Below are positions 7,000 through 29,757 of a stretch of DNA of 64,000 bases, in pieces. The notes under the pieces were generated by a model. The model was not told the origin of the DNA. It made no database searches and saw only the letters and a program-made list of their open reading frames with translations. The first letter of the stretch is position 1. Each line of letters opens with the position of its first letter. This stretch comes from Methylophaga sp. (lineage in GTDB: Bacteria; Pseudomonadota; Gammaproteobacteria; Nitrosococcales; Methylophagaceae): positions 24,689 through 88,688 of the forward strand of contig JAGXHJ010000065.1 of NCBI GenBank assembly GCA_024636315.1, in the 5' to 3' direction. Both the position numbers and the translations under genes were made by a program.

Positions 7000-9900
7000 A
7001 TGGCAGGCAAAGCGGTTGAGATTCTACTCAAAGCAAAAGACTTCGCTTCTGCACAAATTGCAAAAGTAAATGAACGTGTCCGAGCAATCGGCCCTGCTAG
7101 TGATAGCTCGGTGGCTGGCAATGAGCGTTTATCTTCATCCTTTTCAACGCTAACATCACGCATTGGTGCTTTTATTGGTGCGACAGCAGGCTTTATTGCT
7201 GTTAAAGGTTTTTTTGAAGGTGTAATTAATACTGGTAGCAAGTTTGAAACATTACAAACTCAGATCGACGCGGTAACTGGAAGTGCTAAAGCTGGTGAGG
7301 AAGCATTTTCATGGATAAAACAATTTGCTAAAGACACCCCGTTCCAGCTTGATGAGGTTGCTACTTCATTTATAAAACTCAAAGCGTTTGGTCTTGACCC
7401 ACTCGATGGCACCTTTCAAAAGTTAGTCGATCAATCATCCAAATTGGGTGGTGGCCAAGAAAAATTAAATGGCATTATTATCGCGGTAGGCCAAGCATGG
7501 GCTAAGCAAAAATTGCAGGCTGAAGAAACGCTGCAGTTAGTCGAGCGTGGTGTACCTGTTTATGATCTGCTTAGTAAAGCTTTAAGCAAGACAACGGCCG
7601 AAATACAGCAAATGAGTTTTGATGGTGAGTTGGGCCGAGATGCAATTAAGGCGCTCATTGATGAAATGGGTAGTAGCTCATTAGGTGCCGCCGCGGCACA
7701 GATGGAAAATGCTTCCAGTGTCGTTTCAAATTTAAAAGATCAAATTACTGAGTTTTTCGCTGAAATTTCTGATCAGGGCGCATTGGAATACTTCAAAAGC
7801 CAACTAAAAGAACTCTCAAGCACTATTAAGCAGATGGTTGCCGATGGCAGTTTGAAAGAGTTTGCCAAAGATATAGCTGACGGCATGATATCAATGGCCA
7901 AAGCAATCAAAACGACTGTTAGCACCGTCGTTTCTTTTACCTCAGAAATAAAAAGCATGGTCGCCGCTTTTATCACGGTTAAATTTGTTCAATATACCGC
8001 GGCTTTTTTTCAAATAGCTAAGGCTATAACAGCGGCCAAATTTGCACAGATAGGCTTAAACATTGCAATGCGTGCCAACCCGATTGGGCTTTTAGTTACT
8101 GCTATTGGTGCGTTGTACATTGGGATTGAAGCCTTAGTTAATAAATATTTTGACTGGTCGACAAGTGCTGAACGAGCAGCAAGAGATCAGCAATTAGTCG
8201 CCGATCAAGCTGAGGCCGCTGCTGAAAAATACCGAGCATTAACTGAGCAACTTGGCTTGCAGATCACTAGTGAAGAAGATTTGAAGGCGGCTGTTGATGC
8301 TGGTTTAATTTCACTCAATCAAAAAACACAGGAATATGAGCGCGTAAAAACAGCGGCTGAATTAGCCACACTTGCCCAGAATAACTATGTATCAGCCTTA
8401 ACCGGTGTTACGGCTGAAATTAACTTGCAAGCGAATCAGATGGTAGCGGGTGCATTTGCTGGCCAACAGTTCAAAGCCAAGCTAGATGAGATGACAGCAA
8501 GTAGTCAAGGGCTTGCTGGTTCATTATCGTCTATGTCGTCGGGCGTTTTTGCTGAATTTATGGCGGCATCTGAAGAAATGTTAGCTGGCAACTTTTTAAC
8601 AGATCTTGAAACGGCTGATCTAAAACTCGTATTAATGTCAGAGTCATTTAAACGGCTTGGCGTTGATACTGAATTACTACAATCTGGTTTAACTTCTGCT
8701 GGGTTGGCTGCGGTCAAGACTTTTGCATTTATTGCCAATCAAGCCGAAGCAACAGGTGACGTATTATTACTTTCAATTGATGCTGCATTAACTAAAATTA
8801 AAAATAATAGAGGTATTGATGCGATTACTGCCGAAGTAGTTAAGTTGGCAAATACAGGTCGTTACACAAGCGATCAAATCCTTGCAATGATGAGTAAGAT
8901 CGATGCCGCCGCTGAAAAACTCATAAAGCCAATTAAAGAAATAAATAACCTCCTATCAAACTTGGGAAAGGACATTGGTGCAGCGGATACCGTAGAAGCA
9001 CTTGAAGACTTAAGCATAGCTGCGACAGATGCTTTTTCACAGGGAAAGATTACAGCCGAAGAATATAATGATCTTATCGAAGCTATTCAAAATAGGTTGG
9101 CTGATGTTAATGCGTTATTAGAGAGGCAAATACAATTACAGCAACAATTGAACGGCGAAAATGCTGACGGTGACGAACAGCAAGACGATGCTGAACGAAA
9201 CCATCATCGCGAAAGAGAAAAATCAATACAAATAACGGGTCGATTGGGTGAAGCCACGGCGAAAGCACTCGACATATCAAACAAAGCCCGAGTTGGAACA
9301 ATTCTAGGTGTTCAAGCAATACGCCAATACTTTGCCGGCGTAAATACGTTGGCAGCTCGACTACTTGAAGCAAGTGAGAACGCTGATAAATTTGCAGATA
9401 GCGTACTTAATACAGTGGATAGTGGTAACGCATCAGAACAGCAAATGGCCGGCTATGTTAAGCGATTGGAGCAAATGATCGCCGGCGGAAAGAACCTAGA
9501 TAATCAATCACTCAGCAAACTACAAAATGCATTGTCAGCAGCCAAGAGCAAGATGGCAGCTCTTAAAGATGAAACAAAATCAGCTCAAGATGTGATAGCT
9601 GGGCTTGCAGGTGAGCTTGCCGGACTAGAAGGCGATCAATTGAAAGTTCAAGCGATAGAGGCTCAGCAACGGCGACTTGATCTGGAAGGAAAGATAGCTC
9701 AGGCACAGGCGGAAGGTAATGCAGAGGCGGTGGCTAGCTACAATAAAGCGCTGTCGTTGTTAGACAAGATAAACGCCAAAAAGAAACAGCAAATAATCGT
9801 GCAACAACAGGCTGACGCACAGCAAAACAATCAGCAGCAACAAAGCAGCACTAAGCAGAACGGCTCATCACCTATCTCTTCATCGACCAGCAATGGTGCT

Positions 9901-10038
9901 CAGGCAATACCCTCAGGCCGAACTGTGTCGATCAGTTTTGTTGATCCAAAAGGTGAGACTGTGACAGGCGTATTCCCTGAACGAGACGAAAACAAGATGA
10001 TCGATATTTTCCGTAAATCGGGGGCGGTAACACGATGA
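7000..10038 (+). CDS. Tail tape measure protein
   Basis: 1012 residues from ATG 7000, chosen for GGAGAAAG just upstream; an ATG at 6970 lies inside the terminator stem. The N-terminal region has the tape-measure domain (SKFETLQTQIDAVTGSAKAG, FAKDTPFQLDEVATSFIKL, LQLVERGVPVYDLLSKAL). Hydrophobic helices lie at about 315-375 (AAFITVKFVQYTAAFF, IGLLVTAIGALYIGIEALV). Long coiled-coil helices and a Gln-rich, low-complexity C-terminus follow (QQQADAQQNNQQQQSS). Tape measure length sets tail length; at the known 1.5 Å per helical residue this would give a tail of roughly 150 nm, an estimate only. Overlaps the next gene by 4 bases. Confidence 0.92.
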   Translation: MAGKAVEILLKAKDFASAQIAKVNERVRAIGPASDSSVAGNERLSSSFSTLTSRIGAFIGATAGFIAVKGFFEGVINTGSKFETLQTQIDAVTGSAKAGEEAFSWIKQFAKDTPFQLDEVATSFIKLKAFGLDPLDGTFQKLVDQSSKLGGGQEKLNGIIIAVGQAWAKQKLQAEETLQLVERGVPVYDLLSKALSKTTAEIQQMSFDGELGRDAIKALIDEMGSSSLGAAAAQMENASSVVSNLKDQITEFFAEISDQGALEYFKSQLKELSSTIKQMVADGSLKEFAKDIADGMISMAKAIKTTVSTVVSFTSEIKSMVAAFITVKFVQYTAAFFQIAKAITAAKFAQIGLNIAMRANPIGLLVTAIGALYIGIEALVNKYFDWSTSAERAARDQQLVADQAEAAAEKYRALTEQLGLQITSEEDLKAAVDAGLISLNQKTQEYERVKTAAELATLAQNNYVSALTGVTAEINLQANQMVAGAFAGQQFKAKLDEMTASSQGLAGSLSSMSSGVFAEFMAASEEMLAGNFLTDLETADLKLVLMSESFKRLGVDTELLQSGLTSAGLAAVKTFAFIANQAEATGDVLLLSIDAALTKIKNNRGIDAITAEVVKLANTGRYTSDQILAMMSKIDAAAEKLIKPIKEINNLLSNLGKDIGAADTVEALEDLSIAATDAFSQGKITAEEYNDLIEAIQNRLADVNALLERQIQLQQQLNGENADGDEQQDDAERNHHREREKSIQITGRLGEATAKALDISNKARVGTILGVQAIRQYFAGVNTLAARLLEASENADKFADSVLNTVDSGNASEQQMAGYVKRLEQMIAGGKNLDNQSLSKLQNALSAAKSKMAALKDETKSAQDVIAGLAGELAGLEGDQLKVQAIEAQQRRLDLEGKIAQAQAEGNAEAVASYNKALSLLDKINAKKKQQIIVQQQADAQQNNQQQQSSTKQNGSSPISSSTSNGAQAIPSGRTVSISFVDPKGETVTGVFPERDENKMIDIFRKSGAVTR

Positions 10039-10415
10039 CAATAACACTTGATGGCATCACGTTACCGGCGGATCTTGATTGGCCTGATCGTTACAGTTGG
10101 TCGCCCGTTGTTCAGTCACTTGATTATTCATTGACAGGTGCGCCCGTTATTCAAGAAGCGGCAAAAACGGCAGGTCGTGAAATTACCTTAGTCGGTGATA
10201 ACGAGTCGGCGTGGGTACTGAAATCGGTACTCGATCAGCTGTTAGCCAAAGCCAATACCGCCAATCTTGTGATGACATTAACGTACTACGGAACCTCGTT
10301 TAATGTGATGTTCCGTCGTAACACCAGCCCTATTGATGCTCAGCAAATCGTACCGTTTGCGAATCCACAAGATGATGATTATTACAGCCTGACACTCAGG
10401 TTTATTGAAGTTTAG
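10035..10415 (+). CDS. Tail protein (distal-tail/minor tail)
   Basis: 126 residues. It begins ITLDGITLPADLDWPDRYSWSPVVQ, a beta-rich pattern ('DGixLPddLxWxDeY.w~pv.qs') seen in small phage tail proteins between tape measure and tail tip. The C-terminus (DDDYYSLTLRFIEV) is also characteristic. Start overlaps the tape measure stop (ATGA). Probably sits at the distal tail ring or links the tube to the hub. Confidence 0.65.
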   Translation: MTITLDGITLPADLDWPDRYSWSPVVQSLDYSLTGAPVIQEAAKTAGREITLVGDNESAWVLKSVLDQLLAKANTANLVMTLTYYGTSFNVMFRRNTSPIDAQQIVPFANPQDDDYYSLTLRFIEV

Positions 10416-10424
10416 GAACTACTG

Positions 10425-13400
10425 ATGCCCATTCAAACGCAAGATATAAGAATATTAAAATCGGACACCATGAGTGACGTTCCCGAGGGCGGTGGCGGCA
10501 TGACAGGGAACGTAATTGTTGACGGCCAGAGTAATAATATATTTGAAGACATCAGCACGCTAGACAGAGTTTATGGCGCCGTTCACATGCGGAAGGTATT
10601 CCCAAGCGTCAACACGCAAACCCAGGACAAATACTTCGGTTCGCACGTTATCATCAGCAAGCTACCAGGCGACGGGAAGATCGGTGTCAATTTATTTAAT
10701 ACTGGCGATTGGTTCGACAGACGACCAGAAGCACAAAGCCGCGTCGAAAACTACCGGGCGAAAGGCGCAACATACAGTGGGTTTTTATGGGCAACGCAAT
10801 GGAAAGATAGCCGGATTATTTCAATCTTTCAATCAGAAACAGCACCAGTACCAGGTATCGGCGATGTTCTTTATTTAACGAATAAAGCGGCAACAACGAC
10901 GCAGTTTATAAAGATCACTAAGCTAGAGGAAAGCGTTCAAACATTTACCGATAATAGCGGAACATTCAGTCGTCGGATTTTATCGATTGAGATATCACAA
11001 ACGCTAAACTATGACTTTGTTGGTAGTGAAATAAGCCGATTTGACACGTTATCACCAGACGCATCGGTCAAGACGACAGTTGTGGCAAATGCCGCCAAAT
11101 ATTACTCAGCCAGACCGCTGGCCGTTCAAGCAAACGACACCGACCTATCCGTAAAAGTAGATACGGTTTATAGCCAAGTGATCCCAAGTTCACAGCAAGA
11201 ACTAGCCATCCTAGATGCAGACGCAAGCGGTGCAAGTGCTCAGTTAATTGACGCAGGGAATGGAAACGTAGCATTCTCAATAAGCACCAGTTTCGTGCCA
11301 GGGTTTAACCTTTACATGGGGAACCCGTGCCTGCCAGGAACACTATCGATCACCGTTCCAGGCGGCACGTTAACCGACAGCGGTGGCCAGGTGAAAAGCG
11401 GCGCCATATCAGTGGGAACCATTAACTACGCGGCAGGAACGATCAGCTTCGGAGCAACATCGCCAACATATTCAGGATCCAAAACGGTCACATTCAGACC
11501 GGCGGCGGCTCCTGTAAAAATAGCCGACACATCGATGCTTGCAGTTACTGCGGCAAATCGTGGCTTTGTTTGGGTGACCAATATTAACCCACCACCAGAG
11601 CCGGGATCGGTCGAGATCTCATTCATGGCGCTAGGGGAATGGTACTCACTATACGACAATGCAAGCGGCGGGTTATCCGGCCAGGAAGCAGGAATAGGCA
11701 CGGGAACAATTAACTACGTCACCGGATCGATTTCATTATCATTATCAGCAATGCCAGATGCAGATAGCGCGATCATGCTTTCATGGGGAATGCGGTCGAA
11801 TTACTTCAACCGTTCAAACTTCGCAGTGGAATCACCTAAATACAAATACACACTGGCAAACCAGGGTATCGCACGCGGAACGCTGACTATTGCATGGAAT
11901 GACGGAATAGCACGACTAGCAACGGCAGACAATAGCGGCAACTTAACGGGTGACGCAACAGGAAAGGTTAACCACGCAAAAGGAACAGTGGAATTTACAC
12001 CAACGACAATGCCACTAGGCGGTTCAAGTTTTACGATTGACTATCAGTACGGAACACCATTTGAGCAGACATTCCCATACCCAGCGAGAGACGGAAGTGG
12101 AAACCTTGCAATCGATTTATTGACGGCAGACGTATTGCCAAACAGCGTCGAGATTGAATGGAATACGTTTACTGATTTCACTGCACTAACAACAAGTGAA
12201 GAATTGATACCAGATCCAAGGGATCCGATAGAGTTAAGGGTTGATGACGGAGCGGGAGGATTTGTTAACGCGAGCAATGAGGTGCTAACGAAGACGGGCG
12301 GAACAGGGCTGGCCACGATCGATTACGTTAATTCGATAATCACATGGCAACCAGACGTGACAATCAGCATACCTAAGCCGGTTTATAATAAAGTGCTAGT
12401 CGGAACAAAGCCAGTAGATGGAACAGGGATGGGTGGCGGAATAGCGACTACGCCAGCACAGGTGCTGGGAACATTTAAGTACGTGCTGAGTAGTATCAGT
12501 TACGTGGAAGCACCATCGCTATACCCGAATGATACCAGCGGGTACGTTAAAATAAGATACCGAACGACTGACTCACCGGCGGCAGTTCAGGAAGTATTCA
12601 CAGCAAATAGTGTCGAGATTGACCTAACAAACCAATTCGCAGAAGACATCGTGCCAGGCTCGGTAAGTTTTGAATTCTCAGGCAAGCGATACTATGACGT
12701 TTTAGGCCAGGTGTTCTTTGATATAAATCGATTAAACGGATCAGGCATTTACGCCGGATCAATTGATTACACCACCGGCAATATAACCATTACAAACTGG
12801 AACCAGGGCGGAACAACAGCCGTGGCATTAAAATCACTAGTCACATCAATAGCGACACAGCCCGTGGATGAGGTGACATTCAGAATACCTGGATCACCGA
12901 TCAAAGTTCAGTCGTTCCAATTCCGGGTAAGCCCGCTCGATGGTGGCGGACAGCTTAACGGCGTTTCAGATGCTACTGGCCACATCACCGGAACCGATAT
13001 CCTGGGCTTTATTGTTTACGCAACAGGCGTGGTCACTATTCGGTTCGGGATCTGGGTTACAGCGGCAGGAAACGAGGCGGAAGATTGGTATAACGTAGAC
13101 GAGATAACTGCCGCCGGCGAGATATTCAAGCCGCGACTAGTTCACGCAGACACGATGCTTTATAACGCAGTAAGTCAGACGTTCCTGCCACTTGATAGCG
13201 CCATACTTGGACTTGATCCAGTTCGACTACCACAAGACGGCCGGATACCGGTATACGCACCAGGCGACGTAGTCGTCATTCTTCACGACCAGGCAACAAC
13301 GGGAACTTATGTAAACGCAACCCAGACCGACCTGGGACGAGGCCGGATCTCAAAACTGACTGTAAGGGATAGTGCAGACCAAGAAATACTGGCCACAAGA

Positions 13401-16791: not shown

Positions 16792-19185
16792 GTGGCCGAT
16801 TACACGCCAATAACATCGTTTAGCTTTAATGGGACAACGTACACACCAAGTACAGCGTTTGATTTCACTGCTGGAGTCACGATTGATCCGACAGGAAATA
16901 TAGCAACAAACCTAGATAATGCAACGGCATCGTTCACAGCCTATAACGCGGCCCAGGCAACGATAAGCAGTACGCTGGATAACACAACAGCATCACTTTA
17001 TGGTTACGTCGCTGTGCAAGGCGATATAGAAGCAACGCTCGATGGTATAACGGCCGTTTTCGATGCTTACATTCCCAATATTGCCGACATAACCGCAACG
17101 CTTGAAGGACCGACAGCCAGCATTATCGGCAAGCTGATCCAGAACCGGGGTATCATTCAGAGCCTCACGCTAGACAATACCGTCGGCGGGATTATTGGCA
17201 ATTACGATCCAAACGTTACCCGGTGGATCACGGCAAACAAGAACGTGCTCTGGCAAGATACGGCGAAGATGCCACCCGTTAAAATAGCCATGCCGAGAAA
17301 CCAGGGCGAGAGAATCGATCACCAGGCACGGGATCAGCAATCAGATGGAACACTGCAGACAACAAAAACCGGGATAGATATCGAGCAGGGAACCCGGATC
17401 GACATTGCCGATATTGCATCGCAGGACCAAGGGTCTGAACTCACGACTAAAACAGCAATCGCCAGGGACCAGGGAACCAGAACTGACATGGGGATAATTC
17501 ATGCCAGCATTGACGACGGGGCGATATTCAATACAGCGACCGAAGTAATAGCACAGCAAATGACGAAGGTCTACCCTAGCGATTGGCACGCTCGCATTCA
17601 AGATAGCGGAGCAAATCAGCATGACTTCCTGCACTCGACACATGCCGAGCCACCGCTAGAGTTCCAGTACACCCCTGATCGATGGGATACGATATCCTTT
17701 GATTATTCACCAGGCGAATACGCAGTCACAAACGCGTTCGACTTTAGCTTTGGTGTCCAGGTGAACATGGCGACCGGCCATAGCTTCGGGGTAGCGAGAT
17801 CAGAGTTTTACTCACCAAGCCAACAAGTAACAAAATCACGCGAAAATAAAGAATGCGTAATAGTAGAAGAATCAAGACGGCCGCCACGCGGAAAATCAGT
17901 CTGGATTGATTATCCAAGACCAGACCCAGATCCGTTACCGCCAACAGGAACGACGATCACAATCCCATCAAAAGGGGCCTACATTATGGAAAACACGACA
18001 AGCGTCACGCTGGAAGATTTAACCGACATCGAGATGGACAGCATATCGCTCAAATTCGATGCGGACAGTTTTGCGTGGCAGTTCAGCGGGACGTTGCTAG
18101 ATCCTGCCCAATTGCCATTAGTGAAAAAGTTACCAGATGGCAGCACCATTAAATTGATTATTACCATTAATGGTAAAGTCTTTCATGTATTTGTTGAAGA
18201 AAAAGCGAAAAAACGCCGTTTTGGTAAGACAGAAATTACCATTTCAGGTCGATCACTCAGTGCCAAACTAGCATGGCCATACTTTCAACCATCAACCGGT
18301 ACCCAAGGTTCGTTATTAACGGTTCAGCAATTGGCGGATCTGCATTTGCCTGCAGGTTGGACTATTAACTGGTCGGCGGTTACATGGAATGTCACTGCCG
18401 GTGCCTATAGTTACCAAAACAGAACACCCATTCAAGCTATTGCAGATATTGCACTGACCATGGGCGCAATGATTGTGCCGTCGACCGAAAGCCAAGAGCT
18501 AAATATCATGCCGCGTTATCCGGTTTTGCCGTGGAATTTTGCCGCCACGACGGTTGATGTAGCCATTCCTGAAGCCGCTATTTTAGAACTCACCGAGCGT
18601 GATACCAGCAGGCAATATGCCAACGGTATTTATATTCATGGTGCTGAAATTGGTGGTGTACTTGGGTTTTGTCGTTTGAACGGCACGGCGGGCGATGTGT
18701 TATTGCAAACCGTCAGCAATCCGATCATGACGGATGTGATCGGGCTTCGTGCTGCTGGCGAACGTTATCTTGCCGGTGAATATACTCAACCTGAAATTAG
18801 TGCGGTGAAAACCGCGATGGATGGCACAACCATACCGTTTATTGATGTTGGTACTTTTGTGGGTGTGACCGTTGATGGTGTGGAAACAAAAGCGATTGTC
18901 AGTGGCGTGACCATCGAGACTAAATTTCCTGATGTGTTCCAAGAAATAAAACTAGGTGAAGACACTCAAAACAGCTGGCTGGCGTTTCAATCATTATTGC
19001 CCAAAGACCCACTATTAGTGGGAACGCTCACCAGTACTGATGGCACAACTTCGATCATTCAACTCATCGATGGGGGTATTGTCAGAGTGCGTGGCACCGG
19101 CACCGTGAACAATAAATACTATATTCGTTCAGGCCAGATCCAAGGTGATGCACCGAATATGGTGCAGAATGATATTGTTATTTAA
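16792..19185 (+). CDS. Tail hub / tip protein
   Basis: 797 residues from GTG 16792; the ribosome-binding site is weak. Residues 35-118 hold four exact-length 21-residue repeats ('xIxxTLDNxTASxxxY'), followed by Gln/Asp-rich repeats around 'DQGTRxD'. The C-terminal half, from about residue 400, is a different, hub-like region: TSVTLEDLTDIEMDSISLKF, IKLIITINGKVFHVFVEEK, TEITISGRSLSAKLAWPYFQ, NRTPIQAIADIALTMGAMIV. Codon choice changes near base 18,100 from a CGA/GGA style to the CGT/GGT style of the rest of the phage, so a recombination joint inside the gene is likely. Confidence 0.65.
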   Translation: MADYTPITSFSFNGTTYTPSTAFDFTAGVTIDPTGNIATNLDNATASFTAYNAAQATISSTLDNTTASLYGYVAVQGDIEATLDGITAVFDAYIPNIADITATLEGPTASIIGKLIQNRGIIQSLTLDNTVGGIIGNYDPNVTRWITANKNVLWQDTAKMPPVKIAMPRNQGERIDHQARDQQSDGTLQTTKTGIDIEQGTRIDIADIASQDQGSELTTKTAIARDQGTRTDMGIIHASIDDGAIFNTATEVIAQQMTKVYPSDWHARIQDSGANQHDFLHSTHAEPPLEFQYTPDRWDTISFDYSPGEYAVTNAFDFSFGVQVNMATGHSFGVARSEFYSPSQQVTKSRENKECVIVEESRRPPRGKSVWIDYPRPDPDPLPPTGTTITIPSKGAYIMENTTSVTLEDLTDIEMDSISLKFDADSFAWQFSGTLLDPAQLPLVKKLPDGSTIKLIITINGKVFHVFVEEKAKKRRFGKTEITISGRSLSAKLAWPYFQPSTGTQGSLLTVQQLADLHLPAGWTINWSAVTWNVTAGAYSYQNRTPIQAIADIALTMGAMIVPSTESQELNIMPRYPVLPWNFAATTVDVAIPEAAILELTERDTSRQYANGIYIHGAEIGGVLGFCRLNGTAGDVLLQTVSNPIMTDVIGLRAAGERYLAGEYTQPEISAVKTAMDGTTIPFIDVGTFVGVTVDGVETKAIVSGVTIETKFPDVFQEIKLGEDTQNSWLAFQSLLPKDPLLVGTLTSTDGTTSIIQLIDGGIVRVRGTGTVNNKYYIRSGQIQGDAPNMVQNDIVI

Positions 19186-19708
19186 TTCTGTACCAATTTA
19201 CTTTATCTGAATCTTTATTCCAGAGAACTTTGCCATCAAGGTTCGTTCTATATGTTTGGTCAGATAAGCCGCCATATGCCCCATAACCATTCTTTGCACG
19301 ATAACTCAATCTAACTCGATAGCCATCGCCATTTGTACGCGCAGCTAACCAGGTTAAATCTTTAAGTGAATCAGGATCTTTTAAGGCTAAATCTAAGTAA
19401 GAAAGAATACTGGTTTTTATGTGTTCGGGAATATCTGTATCTTGCCAAGCTCTTTCTGCTTCTTGCTCAGCCATAAATTGATCAGAGGCACGTTGAGCAG
19501 ATAAAAGGCGTTCTTCCTCTAAACGTTGCTGTTTCTTCTCTTGCTCGGTTACCTTTGACCATTCAGTGATTTGTTCAGATGAGCAGGGATTTTGCTGAAA
19601 GCTGATGCTGCCATCTTGAGTTTTGCATTTGAACATTGTTGCCGACGCATTAGCGCTAATAGCCAGAGCAAAAAACAGCATGACCAAAGATAATGTGTGC
19701 CTCATCAT
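19178..19708 (-). CDS. Exported DUF4124-type moron protein
   Basis: 176 residues with a clear signal peptide (LVMLFFALAISANASA, cleavage near residue 23-24). The next segment (MFKCKTQDGSISFQQNPCSS) matches the DUF4124 fold with two cysteines. It continues as a charged coiled coil and a C-terminal domain with KDPDSLKDLTW, YRVRLSYRAKNGYGAYGG and NLDGKVLW. That C-terminal domain resembles the periplasmic domain of the protein at 5297. Last gene of a reverse operon with the nuclease and RHH genes, 2 bases after the nuclease stop, and convergent with the tail genes. Function unknown. Confidence 0.65.
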   Translation of the reverse strand: MMRHTLSLVMLFFALAISANASATMFKCKTQDGSISFQQNPCSSEQITEWSKVTEQEKKQQRLEEERLLSAQRASDQFMAEQEAERAWQDTDIPEHIKTSILSYLDLALKDPDSLKDLTWLAARTNGDGYRVRLSYRAKNGYGAYGGLSDQTYRTNLDGKVLWNKDSDKVNWYRIK

Positions 19709-19710
19709 GG

Positions 19711-20853
19711 TTATTTCACGCGTTTAAAATTATCGTCATTCTCACAATAGGCTAGGGCATCGAAACAAAGCCCTGTTAGTCTCATGATGTCGGATGGTTC
19801 AGGTAAGTTTATGTGGTCATTAGGCTCAATGGTTAGGCCTGAACGCTCAACTTCTTGTCGATGTTTGGCTGTTAATTCAATGCCAAAGTGGACTGTGGGG
19901 CTCTTTTTATCGCCATGATAATGCAATAACCAGCGATTGTTTTTGCCTTGAAATACAATACCAAAATAGCTCGCCGTATCTTTTGCTTCGATATTTTCAA
20001 CCGCTGTTTTTGTTTTCAAAATAGTCTGGGTATGTGCCAATAATTCGCGTTCTTGATGGGTGGAAACAATATTTGAATTATTGGGGTCAACGACTGCGGC
20101 AAGTGGGTCAAATGGTATTTCTTCTATCTCTTGAGCTGGTTCGGTGGATGATAAGCTATCAACAACCAATGAGCTTAGGACGTCTTTAACGGCTTTTTTA
20201 ACGATTGGCGTCATGTTATCGAGAGTTTTTTGTGTCATTCGTAATGTGGGATCGGCTTGATTGGCCACAAATTTAACGAAGTCAGGATCGAGATTTTTTA
20301 GGCTATTTCGAATGACCGCCTTAAAGCTGGTTAGATAGGTTAAATCTTCAGCTAGTGTTCGCATGTTTTCTGTCTTCAGATAACCATAACGGAATTTAGC
20401 CAATTCAGATGAATCCAAAATACCCAAGTTTTTGAAGTCAATTTCAAGGAAAGGTTTTTCATCCATGATGTTGTTGTTAGAGAGATCAGTGTAAAAGGCC
20501 CATTGATGGCCATTGGTTACCGCACCAATGCAGACACTGGGGGTTGCATTGAAATAGCGAGACAGTTGTGGCATGTGTTTGGGCAGTTTTTGATCAAAAG
20601 GTTTAGCCTCAATGAACATGACTAATTCACCTTCGGAGTAAAGTGCATAATCAACACGCTCACTATTTTTGGCGCCGGTGAAATCAGCACAGTATTCAGC
20701 TCTGACCATAAGCGGATTAAACGGGCTATAACCTAAGATGTCTAGCAACGGCAGAATAAGTGCCTGTTTCGTTGTTTCTTCGGTTTTGCAGTGAGGCCCA
20801 GCTTCTGCAATATGCTCGCTATGTTCTTTTATTCGTTGTGTAAAATTATCCAT
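19711..20853 (-). CDS. HsdR N-terminal-type nuclease domain protein
   Basis: 380 residues from the ATG at 20853 (MDNFTQRIKEH), chosen for AAGGAAG just upstream; an upstream ATG at 20877 is possible. The N-terminal ~150 residues match the type I restriction HsdR nuclease domain: KTEETTKQALILPLLDILGY, then NSERVDYALYSEGELVMFIE with AKPF, giving the D...ExK core of a PD-(D/E)xK nuclease, all three residues intact. No helicase motor or HsdM/HsdS partner is nearby. The C-terminal part (SYFGIVFQGKNNRWLLHYHG) is unassigned. Lies in one reverse operon with a tandem-RHH protein. Possibly an anti-competitor nuclease; this is inference. Confidence 0.75.
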   Translation of the reverse strand: MDNFTQRIKEHSEHIAEAGPHCKTEETTKQALILPLLDILGYSPFNPLMVRAEYCADFTGAKNSERVDYALYSEGELVMFIEAKPFDQKLPKHMPQLSRYFNATPSVCIGAVTNGHQWAFYTDLSNNNIMDEKPFLEIDFKNLGILDSSELAKFRYGYLKTENMRTLAEDLTYLTSFKAVIRNSLKNLDPDFVKFVANQADPTLRMTQKTLDNMTPIVKKAVKDVLSSLVVDSLSSTEPAQEIEEIPFDPLAAVVDPNNSNIVSTHQERELLAHTQTILKTKTAVENIEAKDTASYFGIVFQGKNNRWLLHYHGDKKSPTVHFGIELTAKHRQEVERSGLTIEPNDHINLPEPSDIMRLTGLCFDALAYCENDDNFKRVK

Positions 20854-20869
20854 CACCACTTCCTTATTA

Positions 20870-21328
20870 TTAATCACTCAAATCCCGAATTAAATTCATT
20901 ACTGCTTTTTTGTGTTTAGGCGAGAGCTTCTTAAACATGATCGTTAAAGCAGCGTCTTCAAAGTCGTTGACCTTGCTTTCTTGTATGCCATGGTGCTTGG
21001 TTGGGCTAGATTCCCATCGTTGAGCAAAAAACAATCGCATGACGATTTCTTGATTTAGGCTATTTCTATGCACAGTGCCGTGCATGCGTAACGATTCCTT
21101 TAGTTTTTCATCTAAGCGGAACTGGAACACCTCAGTATTAAGTTTTGTCGGGCTTGATTGTTTAAACAGCGCAACATCCTGTTCTGAAAACTCCTTATCT
21201 AAGACTGAATTAAGCTTAAATATAACTTCACTATTATTACTTCGTCGGCTTTCTTTAGCCGACAAAATCAACCAGTCCAATGTCTGGACAGGTAAACGCA
21301 GACTGTAGGAAACCGTTTTATTTTTCAT
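20870..21328 (-). CDS. Tandem ribbon-helix-helix (Arc-like) DNA-binding protein
   Basis: 152 residues from the ATG at 21328; a TTG at 21337 could extend it by three residues. Two RHH units are visible: VSYSLRLPVQTLDWLILSAK with NSEVIFKLNSVL, and VFQFRLDEKLKESLRMHG with NSLNQEIVMRLF. Each has the strand, helix A, N-S turn and helix B of Arc/MetJ repressors. A single chain carrying both halves of the usual dimer is unusual. A helical C-terminal tail follows (IMFKKLSPKHKKAVMNLIRD). It opens the reverse operon with the nuclease and stands divergent to the 54-residue Arc-like gene at 21417. Confidence 0.8.
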   Translation of the reverse strand: MKNKTVSYSLRLPVQTLDWLILSAKESRRSNNSEVIFKLNSVLDKEFSEQDVALFKQSSPTKLNTEVFQFRLDEKLKESLRMHGTVHRNSLNQEIVMRLFFAQRWESSPTKHHGIQESKVNDFEDAALTIMFKKLSPKHKKAVMNLIRDLSD

Positions 21329-21400
21329 TAGATGCAAAGTGTAGCTATTTTATGTTGACGTAAATAGATGCAATCTGTATTGTGAATCCATATTGCATTT
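21329..21400. promoter_or_regulatory. Divergent promoter/operator between two RHH genes
   Basis: TAGATGCAA occurs at 21329-21337 and again at 21365-21373, 36 bases apart, and an inverted TTGCAT lies at 21393-21398. A forward promoter TTGACG (21355-21360), 17-base spacer, TATTGT (21378-21383) straddles the second copy, which would be an ideal place for repression. Arc-type repressors bind short repeated half-sites of this kind. The left copy touches the start codon of the reverse RHH gene. One or both RHH proteins are the likely binders; this is inference. Confidence 0.6.
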
Positions 21401-21416
21401 ATAAGGAAGTCGGGAC

Positions 21417-21581
21417 ATGACTACATCAACAGAGAATAAAGTGAAATCTTCATCTATTAGGTTCCCTATAGAATTACTGGATGAGCTTACTGTCGCTGCT
21501 AAGAAAAACTTACGGTCAACAAACAGCGAGATAGTGCTTAGATTGAAACGAAGCTTAGTCGCTGGCCGCGATAAAAATTAA
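21417..21581 (+). CDS. Arc-like ribbon-helix-helix repressor (54 aa)
   Basis: ATG 21417 follows AAGGAAG. 54 residues: basic N-terminal arm, SSIRFPIELLDELTVAAKKN, then STNSEIVLRLKRSL. The RFP strand, helix A, 'STNSEIV' turn and helix B are classical Arc/Mnt features. Divergent from the tandem RHH gene with candidate operators between them. By analogy with P22 Arc/Mnt it may control early genes or the accessory operon. Confidence 0.85.
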   Translation: MTTSTENKVKSSSIRFPIELLDELTVAAKKNLRSTNSEIVLRLKRSLVAGRDKN

Positions 21582-21722: not shown

Positions 21723-22181
21723 ATGAGTAACATGTACGACCCAATTGAAACAGCCATGTATGACATGGTGCATGATTTCCCCGGCGGCGCTGTCAAGCTG
21801 GCTGCCCGTGTCAATATGAATGCTGGCACGCTCAATAACAAAATTAACCCCTCCATGGAATCTCATCATTTGACGCTGAAAGAAGCCGTCAACCTGATGC
21901 TCGCGACCAATGACCTTCGTTTACTACACGCAATAGGCACCGAACTCGGTTTTGTATGTGTGCCTGTTGGGCATTTGGCTGGCGTTTCTGATATTGAATT
22001 TTTGTCTGTTTTTAGCAGAGCAATGTCAGAAGTCGGCGATATGAGTCAAGCCGTTTACGAGGCTTTCAGCGATGGGAAAATCACGCGAAAGGAAGTGGAG
22101 TTAGTGCGTAAAGAAACGGTTGAAGCTATGGCTGCACTGGCTGAACTGCCGTCTCGACTTGAATCAATGTGTGATGAGTAA
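21723..22181 (+). CDS. Phage regulatory CII-family protein
   Basis: 152 residues. It starts YDPIETAMYDMVHDFPGGAVKLA, then ARVNMNAGTLNNKINPSMESHHLTLKEA and a C-terminal helical part (DGKITRKEVELVRKETVEAM). The pattern 'a.~~~v~dfpGG...LA~~~G~~~~tL~nKlNP....~~ltl~Ea' is the phage regulatory CII family (a lambda-repressor-like helix-turn-helix). In lambda CII activates the lysogeny promoters. Ends at a strong terminator, so it forms its own transcription unit. Confidence 0.85.
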   Translation: MSNMYDPIETAMYDMVHDFPGGAVKLAARVNMNAGTLNNKINPSMESHHLTLKEAVNLMLATNDLRLLHAIGTELGFVCVPVGHLAGVSDIEFLSVFSRAMSEVGDMSQAVYEAFSDGKITRKEVELVRKETVEAMAALAELPSRLESMCDE

Positions 22182-22250: not shown

Positions 22251-22844
22251 ATGGAAATGAAAAGATATTTAACGGTTAGTGAAGAAAAAACATTGTTTAA
22301 AACGGTCGATGGCGTGGCGGGTGTATTGGCTCAGCGCGATGGTGCTTGGATGTTATTGCTTCGTCAAACTGGCATGCGTATTGGTTCATTAGCCGGATTA
22401 ACGGTTGCTGATGCGAGACATGGCCTTGCGACTAATTATTTAGAACTAAAAGATGAACATGCCAAAGGTGGGAATGGTTACCAGATATTTTTAAACAAAA
22501 CATCAAAGGCCTGTTTACGAGTTTTGTTAAGCAACCGTATCGAAATGGGTTACACCGCCGAACCTGATATGCCGTTAGTGATGGGCCGTAATAATCAAGG
22601 TTTGAGCATTCGTAGTTTTCAAAGTCGTATGCGAATTTGGGTTGATAAATCATGCATTGCCATGCCTGCTTCGCCACACTGGTTTCGGCATACGTTGGCA
22701 ATGCGAATTATGAGCCAATCCACTGCCACTAATAAATTGGGCGTTGTGCAAGCAGCATTGGGCCATTCAACCGCTGATGCAACGATGATTTATACCCGTC
22801 CAAATCGTGAAGATGTTGCTTTAGCAATGGAGGAAGCGTCATGA
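22251..22844 (+). CDS. Short tyrosine recombinase (catalytic domain only)
   Basis: 197 residues. The catalytic set is visible: R in TGMRIGSLAGL, the K-containing beta hairpin region (KGGNGYQIFLNKT), H-x-x-R in PHWFRHTLAMRI, H in LGHSTADATM, and the Tyr nucleophile in IYTRPN. It lacks the N-terminal SAM-like core-binding domain of ordinary integrases, which normally adds 100 or more residues. It may act as an auxiliary invertase or resolvase, or a regulator. The element also has a large serine recombinase at its end, so this is probably not the integrase. Overlaps the next gene by 4 bases (ATGA). Confidence 0.8.
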   Translation: MEMKRYLTVSEEKTLFKTVDGVAGVLAQRDGAWMLLLRQTGMRIGSLAGLTVADARHGLATNYLELKDEHAKGGNGYQIFLNKTSKACLRVLLSNRIEMGYTAEPDMPLVMGRNNQGLSIRSFQSRMRIWVDKSCIAMPASPHWFRHTLAMRIMSQSTATNKLGVVQAALGHSTADATMIYTRPNREDVALAMEEAS

Positions 22845-23872: not shown

Positions 23873-26576
23873 ACTTAAATCACGGATTGATCTGCATGAC
23901 TTAGCAGACAAATTAGGCATGAGCCGCCCAGGTGGCCGTGGTAATTATCGTAGCCCTCATCATGATGATAAATCACCCAGCCTGTCTATTTTTGAAAAAG
24001 AAGGTAGTCAAGGCTGGAAGGATCACTCTAATGGTGATGGTGGCAGTTGCGTCGATTTAGTCATGTACACACATGCGCTTGATGTTGCTGAAGCCGTGGT
24101 TTTTTTGCATGAACTGTATGGCCTTCCACTGGATAAACCTAATTCAGATCAACCCAGACAGGAGACAACGCGTGCAGAATACATCGCTGACAAATGTTTT
24201 GAACAAACTGAAGAAACGGTTCGTTACCTCACCGGTCGTGGCATTAATGAAGACGTGGTTCGTGGCGCCATCAAGCGTCGATCAGTGGGATGGAATAGTT
24301 GGATCTCAACCCAAGTTGGACCTGGCAATTTTGGTCATGGTGGCCCTGCTTGTGCTTTTATCGTAAAAACGCTTAATCCTGGTCGCGTAGTGGCCGTTGA
24401 TTTGCGATATGAAAATAAAGACTTAAACGGCGGCACTAAAACACAATGCCAAGGCGAAAAATCGGGTCATGTTTGGTATGACGATTTAAAAGCGATTAAG
24501 GCCGCACATACTATATATATAGTGGAATCACCGATTAACGCCTTGTCCGTTGCATCGGCAAAAATACCCGGTGCACAGGCTGTGGCGGTGCGTGGTTTAA
24601 ATGTGCGTGCTATCGATTGGTCATTTTTAATCGGCAAGCGTGTTTTGATTTGCCTTGATGCTGATTTACCTAATGACAAAAACGAACGCCCGGGGCCAGA
24701 AGCAGGCTGGACATTACACGAAATATTACTTGGCTTAAATATATCGGCGATGATGGTCGACCAGATGGATTGGGCTGAAAATAAGTGGAATGATGTAAAT
24801 GATATTTTGATGAATGATTCTGCTTCAGCCTGTCATTCAGCTTTACGCAAGATTGAGCCTTGGATTATTTCAGGTTTACCAGGTAAAGATAGCGTAGGTC
24901 GTTCTCGACTCTATTTGCCACCACATGATTTTGGTCAATATTGGCGTTATCGTGCAAAAGAAGACTTCACTACCTACGTAAAATCGTTTGAAAAAAGCGA
25001 AGAGGGTATGGATGAAGAACAATTTAGCGATGTAGCAGGCTTTAGAGTGGCCGGTATTTCCCGTGTGACCATTGCCAGTGCAACAGCCACTATGACCGGC
25101 GAAAAAGACACACAACCTAACACCACCTTTGCCGTTTCTGTACAAACCCCTCGACATGGCGCCAAGTTAATTCGGCGTGTGTTTGAAGATGAAAAACTGC
25201 ACAACCTTGACCAGTGGCGTAAGTTTGGTCCAGTATTCAATCAAGCCGTATTTTCAAGGATGATAAATGTGCTGGAACGGAGTTCACATCTTGGTTCGCG
25301 TAATGCCGCCAATTTTGTCGGCCTATGCTGGCGCGATGGTCAGTTGATTATCAATGAAGGACCGGATACCTATTTCACCGATCCCGATAAACAATGCCCG
25401 TATCACAATCTGATTTTTCCCACGGGCAGTTTGTTCGATGCCAGAAAAGTCGTGGCAGCCTATCAAGAAACATTCAGGCACAACGCCGCATCAATGATGT
25501 TGGTGTGGAGCTTAGGCGCTCATCTTAAAAACTTGCTTGGTTTTTGGCCTCACATGACCTTGCAGGCCGATAAAGGCGCGGGTAAATCAACTTTGATCAA
25601 ACGCCTTGAACGTACCATCGGTTTTACGATGTTTTCAGGCCAATCGCTGCAGACTGAGTTTCGTTTATTAACCTCAATTTCGCACACCTCGCACCCCGTT
25701 GGATGGGAAGAACTGTCGGCACGTCGGCAAGATGTTATCGATAAAGCAGTGGCCATGTTACAAGAAAATTACCAATATACCGTCAGTCGTCGTGGATCAG
25801 ATATGACGGAATACGTGTTATCAGCACCCGTATTATTAGCCGGTGAAGATGTACCGGTTCGGTCATTGTTAGGTAAATTGATTCGCTCTGAGCTCACTGG
25901 CAAACGCGGCCCGTTAATGGCTGATGATTTACCTCGTTTCCCCGTTAAACAATGGTTGCAGTTTTTAACCACAAAATCACGCCAAGAAGTCAACGCTATT
26001 TATGGCAAAGCACGGCAATTTTGTTTTGATAATTCACGTGCCAAAGGTGAAGACGATGGCGCGGTGCGTATGGCTGGTAATTATGCCGCGATCATGACGG
26101 CATGGCGTTTGTTGTGTGACTTTATGGATATCCCCAAAGAATCCGGCAATTTTATTGGTGATTGTTTGGCTGAAATGAATAGCCATGTCAGTGAAACCAG
26201 TTCAGATCGTGAACCGTGGGTGTGGATTTTAGAAACAATCCTTTCTGAAATGGATAGTGGCCAATATCGCCACCCATTCAAGTTTGATCGCGTGACCTTA
26301 GTACCAGGTGAAGATGATGTCGAATGCCTACTCATTAGAACTGGCCACGTTATGGATCACATCAGCCATTCCCCTGCATTACGTGAAAAGTGGAATGCCT
26401 TGCCGGTGAAATCTGATCGTGTATTCAAAAAACAATGCAAGCAAGCAGGCGTGATCTTAAAAGATGACGTTGAAAAAATTATTAATGGAAAACGGGTGTG
26501 TCACATGGTGGCATTTAGTTTAGAAAATTTGGCGAAGTATGGACTGTATACATCAGCGCCGGAGCATATTGTATGA
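23856..26576 (+). CDS. Phage primase-helicase (TOPRIM + AAA ATPase)
   Basis: 906 residues, GTG or ATG-equivalent start at 23856 overlapping the preceding gene by 17 bases. The N-terminal domain (DLHDLADKLGMSRPGGRGNY, then SPHHDDKSPSLSIF and WKDHSNGDGGSCVDLV) is a primase zinc-binding-like domain with a reduced cysteine set. Residues about 205-290 are TOPRIM (IYIVESPINALSVAS; LICLDAD). Residues about 545-600 carry a Walker A (QADKGAGKSTLIKRLE) and a following ATPase region with PVLLAGEDVP. Acts in prophage replication, priming and unwinding. The methyltransferase gene follows with ATGA overlap. Confidence 0.85.
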   Translation: MASIAELKSRIDLHDLADKLGMSRPGGRGNYRSPHHDDKSPSLSIFEKEGSQGWKDHSNGDGGSCVDLVMYTHALDVAEAVVFLHELYGLPLDKPNSDQPRQETTRAEYIADKCFEQTEETVRYLTGRGINEDVVRGAIKRRSVGWNSWISTQVGPGNFGHGGPACAFIVKTLNPGRVVAVDLRYENKDLNGGTKTQCQGEKSGHVWYDDLKAIKAAHTIYIVESPINALSVASAKIPGAQAVAVRGLNVRAIDWSFLIGKRVLICLDADLPNDKNERPGPEAGWTLHEILLGLNISAMMVDQMDWAENKWNDVNDILMNDSASACHSALRKIEPWIISGLPGKDSVGRSRLYLPPHDFGQYWRYRAKEDFTTYVKSFEKSEEGMDEEQFSDVAGFRVAGISRVTIASATATMTGEKDTQPNTTFAVSVQTPRHGAKLIRRVFEDEKLHNLDQWRKFGPVFNQAVFSRMINVLERSSHLGSRNAANFVGLCWRDGQLIINEGPDTYFTDPDKQCPYHNLIFPTGSLFDARKVVAAYQETFRHNAASMMLVWSLGAHLKNLLGFWPHMTLQADKGAGKSTLIKRLERTIGFTMFSGQSLQTEFRLLTSISHTSHPVGWEELSARRQDVIDKAVAMLQENYQYTVSRRGSDMTEYVLSAPVLLAGEDVPVRSLLGKLIRSELTGKRGPLMADDLPRFPVKQWLQFLTTKSRQEVNAIYGKARQFCFDNSRAKGEDDGAVRMAGNYAAIMTAWRLLCDFMDIPKESGNFIGDCLAEMNSHVSETSSDREPWVWILETILSEMDSGQYRHPFKFDRVTLVPGEDDVECLLIRTGHVMDHISHSPALREKWNALPVKSDRVFKKQCKQAGVILKDDVEKIINGKRVCHMVAFSLENLAKYGLYTSAPEHIV

Positions 26577-27310
26577 GTGTTCAGTTATTCCATGGCGATT
26601 GCTTAGATATCATGAATGAAATACCTAGTAACTCAATTGATATGGTACTGGCAGACCCACCATACGGCACAACTCATTGCGATTGGGATTCGTGTTTGGA
26701 TTTGGAAATCATGTGGGGTCATTTAAAGCGAGTCATTAAACCAAATGGTGCCATCGTTTTAACAGCACAAACACCGTTCGATAAGGTATTGGGCGCATCT
26801 AATCTAAAAATGCTCAGGTATGAATGGATTTTAGAAAAGCCTGCAGCGACGGGGTTCTTTAACGCTAAAAAGATGCCGTTGAAAGCGCATGAGAACATCT
26901 TGGTTTTTTATAAGAAGTTACCTACCTATAACCCTCAGATAACACATGGCCACCCACGAAAAACATCGGGTCGACTGGATATCGGTTCTGAGATATATGG
27001 CAAACCTGTGAAAAAAACAAATTATGACTCTACTAGTCGGTACCCAAGAAGTATTCAAAAATTCAAAAGTGATAAGCAAAAAAAGAAGCTGCACCCAACA
27101 CAAAAGCCGGAAGCATTAATGGAGTATTTAATTAATACATATACCAATAGTGGTGAGTGCGTGCTTGATTTCGTAATGGGTAGCGGCACAACAGGCGTGG
27201 CAGCTAAAAGACTAAACCGAAAATTCATCGGTATTGAGTTGAAAAAGATTCATTTTGATGCTGCCACAAGAAGAATCGAAAGTACTACCGCTGCGGATCG
27301 CTCGGGCTAA
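26573..27310 (+). CDS. Phage DNA methyltransferase (beta-class, amino-group)
   Basis: 245 residues. Motif IV DPPY is in MVLADPPYGTTHCDWD near the N-terminus, and motif I is near the C-terminus (VLDFVMGSGTTGVAAKRLNR, then FIGIEL). This order (IV before I) defines beta-class N6-adenine or N4-cytosine methyltransferases. A conserved HPTQKPEALMEYLI segment lies between. No cognate restriction gene is adjacent, so it is an orphan phage methyltransferase, likely protecting phage DNA or controlling expression. The target sequence cannot be read from the protein. Confidence 0.9.
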   Translation: MSVQLFHGDCLDIMNEIPSNSIDMVLADPPYGTTHCDWDSCLDLEIMWGHLKRVIKPNGAIVLTAQTPFDKVLGASNLKMLRYEWILEKPAATGFFNAKKMPLKAHENILVFYKKLPTYNPQITHGHPRKTSGRLDIGSEIYGKPVKKTNYDSTSRYPRSIQKFKSDKQKKKLHPTQKPEALMEYLINTYTNSGECVLDFVMGSGTTGVAAKRLNRKFIGIELKKIHFDAATRRIESTTAADRSG

Positions 27311-27959: not shown

Positions 27960-28104
27960 CGTTGTTGTCGAAACTAGGGGCGAGATCGACATAGATGCAG
28001 TATCTGACTTCTTGTTACCGTTGCTCTTTAAGCATCTAACTGATAATAAAATTAATGAAAAACCAAGCCGCCCTTTATCTGAGATCCAGCAAAGACCGCA
28101 GTGA
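27952..28104 (+). CDS. Small hypothetical protein ahead of serine recombinase
   Basis: 50 residues (MADVVVETRGEIDIDAVSDF then LLPLLFKHLTDN). ATG 27952 overlaps the end of the preceding gene by 8 bases; ATG 27946 is an alternative. It overlaps the recombinase start by 50 bases. The coupling resembles small excision factors next to serine integrases, but the sequence gives no proof. Confidence 0.5.
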   Translation: MADVVVETRGEIDIDAVSDFLLPLLFKHLTDNKINEKPSRPLSEIQQRPQ

Positions 28105-29572
28105 TGTAAGCATTTCTGCACAACGACGAGAGTTATATTCGCTGGCTAAACAGCGAAATTTAGTTATCGTTGATGAGTATGTCGATGCGGTTGAGTCTGG
28201 TTCAACAGAAAACCGCCCAGGCTTTCAAGAAATGTTTAATGCGATTAAGTCTCGTGATCGTGCATGGGATACTATTTTACTGCTTGATACGAGTCGATTA
28301 TCGCGCCGGCAATACATTTCCCATTTCTTTGAATATGAGTGCGAAAAAAAGAACATTACGCTTATATATAAGAGTCTACCTGTTGAAGATCCTATCAGTG
28401 CCATGATGCTGAAGGCTGTATTGCAAGCAATGGACCAATGGCATTCAATGATCAGCAAGCAAAAAGGGCTTGCTGGCATGTCTGAGAATGTTAAACAGGG
28501 TTTTCGTGCCGGTGGCAGTGCACCTCGAGGTTATTCTCTTGAGAAAGTCACCACTAAAACGATTCGTGATGGTGTCGCTGTGACTAAATCACGATTGGTC
28601 CCTAATGATGATGCTGAATTAGTGGGCGAGTTATTGTCATATCGAGCAAAAGGTCTACCTCGTCAACGTGTTCATGACAGCCTTGATATTAAGTGGCCAA
28701 CAAATTCAACGTTGTCGATGGAATGGAATGCATTAACGTATGCTGGCCATACGGTATGGAATGTTCATGCTGAGCGACGTGAAGGTAAAAGCATTACAGG
28801 AATGAAGCGCCGGCCACGAAGTGAATGGCATATAAAAGAAAATACACACCAGGCATTAATCTCTCACCAACAAGCTGAAATGATACTGTCTCAATTAGAG
28901 TCTAAACAGCGTAAATCTAAGCCAACCAAGGCTATTTACTTACTCTCAGGTCTGCTTTATTCAGCTGAGACAGGTGAGAAGTATCACGGTGATCGCGCTA
29001 AATATTATCGGCTTGGTAAATCAAAACGCATCCCGTGTGACACGATAGACGATGCAATAATGAAACAGATCCTTTCGGATTTGCAATCAAATTACTTTAT
29101 CAAGGCCATTACCAACAAAGCACGCGAAAAACTAAATCCACAAACTCGTAATGTGAAACGTGGCGCCATCACTCGAAAAGTTGACGATATCTCGAAAAAG
29201 ATAATAAAACTGATGGATTTGATTACAGAAGTCGATGATACCGCGCCCTATATGGCCAGAATTAAAGATCTGAACACGCAGCGTGATGAACTTGAACTGA
29301 AGGTATATGAGATGAACCGGCTGGAAATGGACTCTAAAGACATCAATGAGTTTGATATTAAGCGTGCTTTAGCGTCATTGGCTACTGAATTACAAACATT
29401 GGATAGGGATCAGCTGAAGGATATGCTTTCCGTAATAATTAGCAAAATCAACGTTTTAGAGTCAACCCCCCAAAAGAGGGAACCCCCTAGAGCTGAAATT
29501 CACTATAGAATCAACTCTAGGGGGGTTGTAATGGCGTCCCCAAGGGGGTTCGAACCCCTGTTACCGCCGTGA
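28055..29572 (+). CDS. Large serine recombinase (phage integrase)
   Basis: 505 residues. Resolvase domain at 5-150: AALYLRSSKDRSDVSISAQ (catalytic Ser12 in the Y-x-R-x-S context) and LLLDTSRLSRRQYIS with the conserved Arg residues. A Recombinase domain follows at about 155-270 (AGGSAPRGYSLEKV). The zinc-ribbon region is degenerate: the usual 'GLLxCxxCG' reads GLLYSAETGEKYHG, with no Cys pair. A C-terminal coiled coil follows (RIKDLNTQRDELELKVYEMN). The last 14 codons (MASPRGFEPLLPP) are read from the antisense of tRNA-Glu, so the natural C-terminus depends on the attachment site. Presumed integrase of the prophage. Confidence 0.9.
   Translation: MKNQAALYLRSSKDRSDVSISAQRRELYSLAKQRNLVIVDEYVDAVESGSTENRPGFQEMFNAIKSRDRAWDTILLLDTSRLSRRQYISHFFEYECEKKNITLIYKSLPVEDPISAMMLKAVLQAMDQWHSMISKQKGLAGMSENVKQGFRAGGSAPRGYSLEKVTTKTIRDGVAVTKSRLVPNDDAELVGELLSYRAKGLPRQRVHDSLDIKWPTNSTLSMEWNALTYAGHTVWNVHAERREGKSITGMKRRPRSEWHIKENTHQALISHQQAEMILSQLESKQRKSKPTKAIYLLSGLLYSAETGEKYHGDRAKYYRLGKSKRIPCDTIDDAIMKQILSDLQSNYFIKAITNKAREKLNPQTRNVKRGAITRKVDDISKKIIKLMDLITEVDDTAPYMARIKDLNTQRDELELKVYEMNRLEMDSKDINEFDIKRALASLATELQTLDRDQLKDMLSVIISKINVLESTPQKREPPRAEIHYRINSRGVVMASPRGFEPLLPP
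29481..29526. repeat. 12-bp perfect inverted repeat beside the attachment tRNA
   Basis: AACCCCCTAGAG (29481-29492) and CTCTAGGGGGTT (29515-29526) with a 22-base centre, inside the recombinase coding end and five bases short of the tRNA-Glu copy. It could be a recombinase binding arm at the phage end of the attachment site, or an mRNA hairpin. Confidence 0.5.
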
Positions 29573-29607
29573 AAGGGCAGTGTCCTAGGCCTCTAGACGA
29601 TGGGGAC
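29532..29607 (-). tRNA. tRNA-Glu (TTC), copy at prophage junction
   Basis: 76 bases on the reverse strand, encoded CCA included. Acceptor stem GTCCCCA / TGGGGAC, anticodon loop CTTTCAC giving TTC, and T-loop GGTTCGAACCCC. Identical to the copy at 29682 over the tRNA and similar for about 15 bases beyond its 5' end. The prophage abuts its 3' end, and the serine recombinase reads into it on the opposite strand. Confidence 0.95.
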
Positions 29608-29641
29608 CTAAACTGTTTTTTCTTACTACATTGTCGAACTA

Positions 29642-29675
29642 AAATAAAAAGGCTTAGAACTTACTTCTAAGCCTT
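29642..29675 (-). terminator. Terminator between two tRNA-Glu copies
   Basis: On the reverse strand AAGGCTTAGAA / TTCTAAGCCTT (29649-29659 with 29665-29675) with a 5-base loop, followed by TTTTTATTTT. It would stop transcription coming from tRNA-Ala and the proximal tRNA-Glu before the distal copy is reached. Confidence 0.85.
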
Positions 29676-29681
29676 CATATA

Positions 29682-29757
29682 TGGCGTCCCCAAGGGGGTT
29701 CGAACCCCTGTTACCGCCGTGAAAGGGCAGTGTCCTAGGCCTCTAGACGATGGGGAC
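29682..29757 (-). tRNA. tRNA-Glu (TTC), proximal copy
   Basis: Same 76-base sequence as the copy at 29532. It stands 25 bases after tRNA-Ala in the reverse direction, followed by an intrinsic terminator. This is probably the original Ala-Glu transcription unit. Confidence 0.97.

Follow-up and report, generated by a model that had tools for sequence, protein, structure and literature searches.

The window, by which we mean the whole 64,000-nucleotide stretch analysed (G000:C93:24689-88688), comes from a contig with a tailed prophage of about 42 kb. The left end of the prophage lies directly past lipopolysaccharide export genes, with the preceding ORFs read as lptF/lptG, and its right end is occupied by a large serine recombinase (window 28055-29572) and tRNA-Glu genes adjoining lptD. 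Nearly all prophage genes are oriented rightward, and the main leftward cluster consists of the genes for an RHH protein, a nuclease and a DUF4124 protein. The cluster and its surroundings contain the following features.

16792-19185, plus strand: tail protein; its gene converges on the cargo genes and marks the left border of the slot (phrog_6079, E 6.9e-73)
19178-19708, minus strand: exported DUF4124 protein, optional cargo (PF13511, E 2.7e-5)
19711-20853, minus strand: lone HsdR-N nuclease (PD-(D/E)xK, QxxxY) of 380 aa (PF04313, E 6.9e-12; phrog_4225, E 3.7e-120)
20870-21337, minus strand: tandem-RHH protein, candidate lysogenic repressor (Arc PF03869, E 1.4e-7, residues 11-49)
21329-21343, plus strand: third copy of the operator half-site (TAGATGCAAAGTGTA), adjoining the repressor start codon (repeat search)
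21364-21402, no strand assigned: operator-like inverted repeat between the divergent RHH genes (15 of 18 positions paired; dinucleotide shuffles)
21417-21581, plus strand: small Arc-like RHH protein of 54 aa, Cro-slot regulator and first gene of the rightward early operon (PF03869 Arc, E 1.6e-7)
21723-22181, plus strand: CII-like activator (Phage_CP76; PF06892, E 2e-39)

The three reverse-strand genes described in an earlier note on this DNA are all ORFs with domain matches (Pfam, PHROG), and the small Arc-like RHH gene and the CII-like gene, both divergent from the operon, were absent from that note. Its view of the site as a cargo slot between tail and early genes holds as far as prophage cargo is concerned, and the slot itself is better read as a leftward lysogeny operon with Cro-like and CII-like genes opposite it. 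Elsewhere in the prophage, a tyrosine integrase at the left end (L184:8182-9183) and the serine recombinase at the right end occur in a single element, and a second small integrase-like gene (22251-22844) follows the CII-like gene. Probable attachment sites are marked by ATATATGGYGTCCCCAAGGGG, which is common to L184 at about 7451-7471 and the window at about 29532-29700 and matches the 3′ end of tRNA-Glu; the tRNA-Glu genes near the right-hand site are in tandem. A further leftward gene in the tail region (5297-5869; phrog_3403, function not assigned) is possibly a second lysogeny-expressed cargo gene, and the early region encodes an orphan N6/N4 DNA methyltransferase (26573-27310; PF01555, E 3e-33), which might mark the DNA of the prophage against the nuclease.

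The tandem-RHH protein is 152 aa long when started at ATG 21328 and 155 aa from TTG 21337. Two RHH units had been proposed in its single chain, which is supported, with the second unit scoring poorly in the window protein (FitA-like, E 0.009) and clear in a sister prophage of the same genus (G017), whose counterpart has two Arc stretches with a total E of 6e-15. Between this gene and the small divergent RHH gene, inverted-repeat arms at 21364-21381 and 21385-21402 form a structure that none of 1000 dinucleotide shuffles reached, and exact TAGATGCAA occurs only twice in window positions 1-30000, both times at the operator region. The repeat overlaps a promoter-like site (21355-21383) for the rightward operon, in a sigma-70 scan that as a whole performed no better than shuffles. 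The sister prophage contains similar TTTCACA/TGTGAAA elements at its operator repeats, which were not significant (135/500), and encodes a small RHH counterpart of 62 aa in the same position. This arrangement has the layout of a CI/Cro-type switch, with two divergent regulators across an operator region and a CII gene in the rightward operon. A switch of that type also has an HTH repressor with S24 autocleavage, and here the regulator is RHH instead; no HTH_3, S24 or other HTH repressor was found within the window prophage. In another prophage of the genus (G025), an HTH CI-type protein faces CP76 in the place where the tandem RHH faces it in the window. The gene arrangement suggests that the tandem-RHH protein is better read as the candidate lysogenic repressor of the phage, sitting in the CI slot, and in the simplest model the small RHH protein would take the role of Cro.

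No relatives of the window or sister tandem-RHH proteins were found in phage records. A comparison of the C-terminal helix with the C-termini of HTH phage repressors gave no significant match beyond the two RHH proteins themselves, and other Arc matches in the genus (G021:C71 and G017:C39) proved to be unrelated TA-like genes. On the latter contig, an RHH/PIN-like (FitAB-type) pair lies inside an apparent Wadjet jetABC operon (L234, 5196-11658). Among the tail genes of the window, the gene at 6177-6701 has weak similarity to the antirepressor Ant (phrog_245, E 0.003) and could be an inducer for a non-cleavable RHH repressor.

The ORF of the nuclease extends over 19711-20877, and its likeliest start is the ATG at 20853, which agrees with the starts of homologues, is preceded by AAGGA and lies 16 bp past the RHH stop codon. 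The protein is a full-length match to phrog_4225 (residues 9-381 on profile positions 1-357 of 357). The D68...E82-A-K84 residues are intact, as had been claimed for this orphan HsdR-N nuclease, and E25, D68, E82, K84, Q96, R99 and Y100 are invariant in an alignment of 52 of 52 homologues, so that the loss of active-site conservation that the note had named as refuting its proposal was not seen. They correspond to the PD-(D/E)xK residues and to the QxxxY motif found in HsdR and RecB-type nucleases. Per-residue confidence of the AlphaFold2 (AF2) model is high (pLDDT 91.5, pTM 0.56), and among solved structures Foldseek matches it best to the HsdR fragment 3h1t (prob 1.00, E 0.022); a sequence search of solved structures returned only chance coiled-coil matches. 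As the earlier note stated, there is no motor, methylase or specificity subunit nearby, the neighbors being the RHH, DUF4124 and tail genes, and a helicase motor is absent from the 380-aa protein in both Pfam matches and predicted structure. The locus thus differs from type I restriction-modification, in which an HsdR with a motor is encoded beside HsdM and HsdS. The possibility that the protein acts as an alternative restriction subunit for host HsdM/HsdS is very remote, as type I cleavage requires DNA translocation, the protein has no motor and the family spans phyla irrespective of neighbors, although type I HsdS and long HsdR genes of the host are present on other contigs.

In the model, a long helical stretch follows the nuclease domain, and the C-terminal part (residues ~258-380) forms a domain of its own. 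Structure prediction of this half, which had been proposed as a check, gave a confident fold for the domain alone (pLDDT 94.7, pTM 0.87), for which the nearest solved folds are the C-terminal DNA-binding domain of T4 MotA (5jlt, 1kaf; prob 0.97-0.99, TM 0.5-0.56, Foldseek E 0.015, 12% identity). The match is suggestive only of a domain that may read DNA, and DUF1801/YdhG-like proteins score similarly. If the nuclease acts in restriction, the reading favored below, this domain might recognize modified bases on phage DNA in the manner of modification-dependent, type IV-like enzymes. The lack of a cognate methylase means that self DNA has to be told apart in some other way. The well-predicted domain and its nearest fold are in keeping with such a specificity, but with an E-value of 0.015, a TM near 0.5 and similar scores for DUF1801/YdhG-like proteins we consider this version of the restriction reading rather unlikely, if still the best placed of the alternatives.

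Relatives of the nuclease are numerous, with at least 560 confirmed in a genome scan and at least 576 in a scan of viral contigs, and 29 of 369 genomes of the host's class have a match with an E-value no higher than 1e-3, which is a strong one in 13 genomes. Members of the family occur in phages of Proteobacteria, Firmicutes, Fusobacteria, Bacteroidetes and Actinobacteria, and are usually annotated as "endonuclease", "type I restriction enzyme related" protein or DUF450. From 178 loci with a nuclease ORF, 96 non-redundant loci (<90% identical) were retained, and upstream genes were scored when on the same strand as the nuclease and within 1 kb of it. An HTH repressor-like gene was upstream in 17 of the 96, which is a lower bound since annotated repressors such as that of the Klebsiella phage KpF5 type escaped our home-made profile. 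A divergent CP76 CII-like gene was present at 9 of 44 proteobacterial loci. The nuclease lies right after a CI-type repressor, or a short way downstream of one, in five of six annotated phages, sometimes with at least one gene between; the exception is the Porphyromonas phages, in which it follows HicAB near tail genes. Other copies are found among late tail genes (L115, L129, L162 and L007), in tail regions of prophages, at chromosomal sites such as one in Acinetobacter (L041 and L043) that adjoins what is probably the aminotransferase gene serC, on plasmids and outside prophages.

This placement bears on whether the nuclease might serve the phage itself, in recombination, repair, DNA processing or host DNA degradation, and not in defense. 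Its PHROGs category, DNA, RNA and nucleotide metabolism, would suit such a role, as would the copies among late tail genes. However, here and at most switch-linked loci the nuclease is transcribed with the repressor and opposite to the lytic genes, and a phage-only role makes little sense for copies on plasmids or outside prophages, so that we regard this explanation as improbable.

The earlier note had paired the RHH protein with the lone HsdR-N domain as a two-gene module that it could match to no named system. The nuclease does belong to a catalogued family, phrog_4225, and the module is not borne out. In the proposed survey for RHH and HsdR-N pairs, an RHH gene preceded the nuclease at only 2 of 96 non-redundant loci, the window prophage and its sister in the same genus, compared with 17 for HTH; this is close to the complete lack of co-occurrence in other genomes that the note itself had named as fatal to the idea, and we reject a conserved RHH and HsdR-N module on the basis of this neighborhood survey. 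Because of its distribution and placement, the nuclease is instead mobile single-gene cargo and not half of an RHH module.

Comparison with the sister prophage points the same way. The two nucleases share 80.9% amino acid identity (dN 0.12, dS saturated) and are the most conserved of five genes compared, followed by the integrase-like (59%), CII-like (58%) and tail (54%) genes, and the tandem-RHH proteins are the least conserved (35% identity, dN 0.76). This is the pattern that a constrained enzyme beside a diversifying immunity repressor would be expected to show, and the strong purifying selection on the nuclease indicates that it is used. The sister has no DUF4124 gene at the matching place, the nuclease and the convergent tail gene being immediate neighbors there, and no DUF4124 protein was found in phage records.

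These data also weigh against reading the pair as a type II toxin-antitoxin or addiction module, with an RHH antitoxin that binds a nuclease toxin and autoregulates through the palindromic operator. RHH antitoxins are common, and the locus has an operator-like palindrome and coupled genes with the RHH gene first and a 16-bp gap. But the nuclease has no RHH partner at 94 of the 96 loci where a toxin-antitoxin system would keep a conserved pair, the divergence of RHH to 35% against 81% for the nuclease is unlike an obligate pair, and a second divergent RHH gene with CII makes a phage switch and not a toxin-antitoxin layout. We judge this explanation to have little chance of being correct.

The best reading of the locus from its gene content is therefore that of a lysogeny operon in which a putative RHH-type repressor replaces CI, with a known but unstudied phage nuclease as cargo. 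In the mechanism that we favor, the tandem RHH would bind the repeats between itself and the small divergent RHH gene, would silence the early operon on its right (small RHH, CII-like and replication genes) and would regulate its own leftward transcript. That transcript would also supply the lone nuclease, here together with DUF4124, during prophage dormancy, as co-transcription with the repressor implies expression in lysogeny. The HsdR-like PD-(D/E)xK domain would cut DNA and the helical and C-terminal domains would probably decide which DNA gets cut, such that incoming competitor phage DNA is degraded and host and prophage are spared. Protection from incoming DNA is the best explanation for a DNA-cutting enzyme that a prophage retains in lysogeny, and the nuclease is probably lysogeny-expressed cargo acting as a single-gene restriction or superinfection defense. 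We consider this account as a whole, from tandem-RHH repressor to co-transcribed single-polypeptide restriction-type nuclease, the probable one by a modest degree. Counted against it are the many nuclease loci outside lysogeny operons, in tail regions and at chromosomal sites, the promoter scan at the level of shuffles, the non-significant operator repeats of the sister, the weak and general PADLOC match, and the fact that the RHH proteins lack an S24 cleavage domain through which induction could be explained.

The earlier suggestion of prophage cargo with defense or exclusion as its likely role is supported, and we infer the role from placement in the lysogenic operon, because the literature search found no paper that names the phrog_4225-type family or tests its function by experiment. 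The COG that applies to the window nuclease is presumably COG4748. In PMC8649781 and PMC12429752, this COG is mentioned only in lists, as a restriction endonuclease. PADLOC returned a weak general PD_DExK match alone (E 6.6e-4), and no specific system model matched. Elsewhere, a remnant of a related prophage (G060) has the genes ZorA, ZorB and ZorE of type II Zorya, an established defense system, in the stretch after a homolog of the window tail protein, and defense cargo therefore occurs there. In that remnant (L235, G060:C2:999000-1012000), ZorE, ZorB and ZorA are found with a P22_AR_N antirepressor at 8628-12303 on the minus strand.

In phage P22, immI provides secondary immunity and controls an antirepressor; the primary repressor of P22 is the HTH protein c2. 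The window resembles immI (Arc, Mnt) in having two RHH regulators with operator repeats. It differs in that one protein carries two RHH units, and in that the RHH pair faces a CII-like gene and early operon with no HTH repressor found; no antirepressor gene adjoins the RHH genes, and there is only the weak Ant match at 6177-6701. BstA is a prophage-encoded abortive infection protein with a DNA self-immunity element, aba (PMC8585504). The nuclease would work like BstA, as a prophage-borne single gene protecting the lysogen, but is not related to it: the domains differ, and no counterpart of aba was identified at the window locus. With type I HsdR (3h1t, PF04313), the nuclease has in common the PD-(D/E)xK core and the QxxxY motif, and is set apart by its separate C-terminal domain as well as by the missing motor, HsdM and HsdS. 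T4 MotA offers the nearest fold for that domain (5jlt), which in the window protein is joined to a nuclease, at low identity and with a weak E-value. The phrog_4225 "endonuclease" proteins show the same full-length match and catalytic residues and also follow prophage repressors, usually of the HTH type in switch regions, whereas the window copy is under a tandem RHH. The possible new elements are thus an RHH-only switch and a putative DNA-reading C-terminal domain on the nuclease.

More tentatively, and with the odds somewhat against it, phrog_4225-type proteins may form an unrecognized, widespread single-gene restriction or defense family, in which a motorless HsdR-like nuclease with a MotA-like, potentially DNA-reading domain is placed under lysogenic repressors of the unrelated HTH and RHH types and protects lysogens against competing phages, here with an RHH-only switch. 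If so, these nucleases would be compact stand-alone defense enzymes that discriminate DNA without a methylase, motor or specificity subunit. If the switch is as proposed, temperate phages can build a primary immunity switch from RHH proteins without an HTH/S24 repressor, which would raise the question of how such prophages induce.
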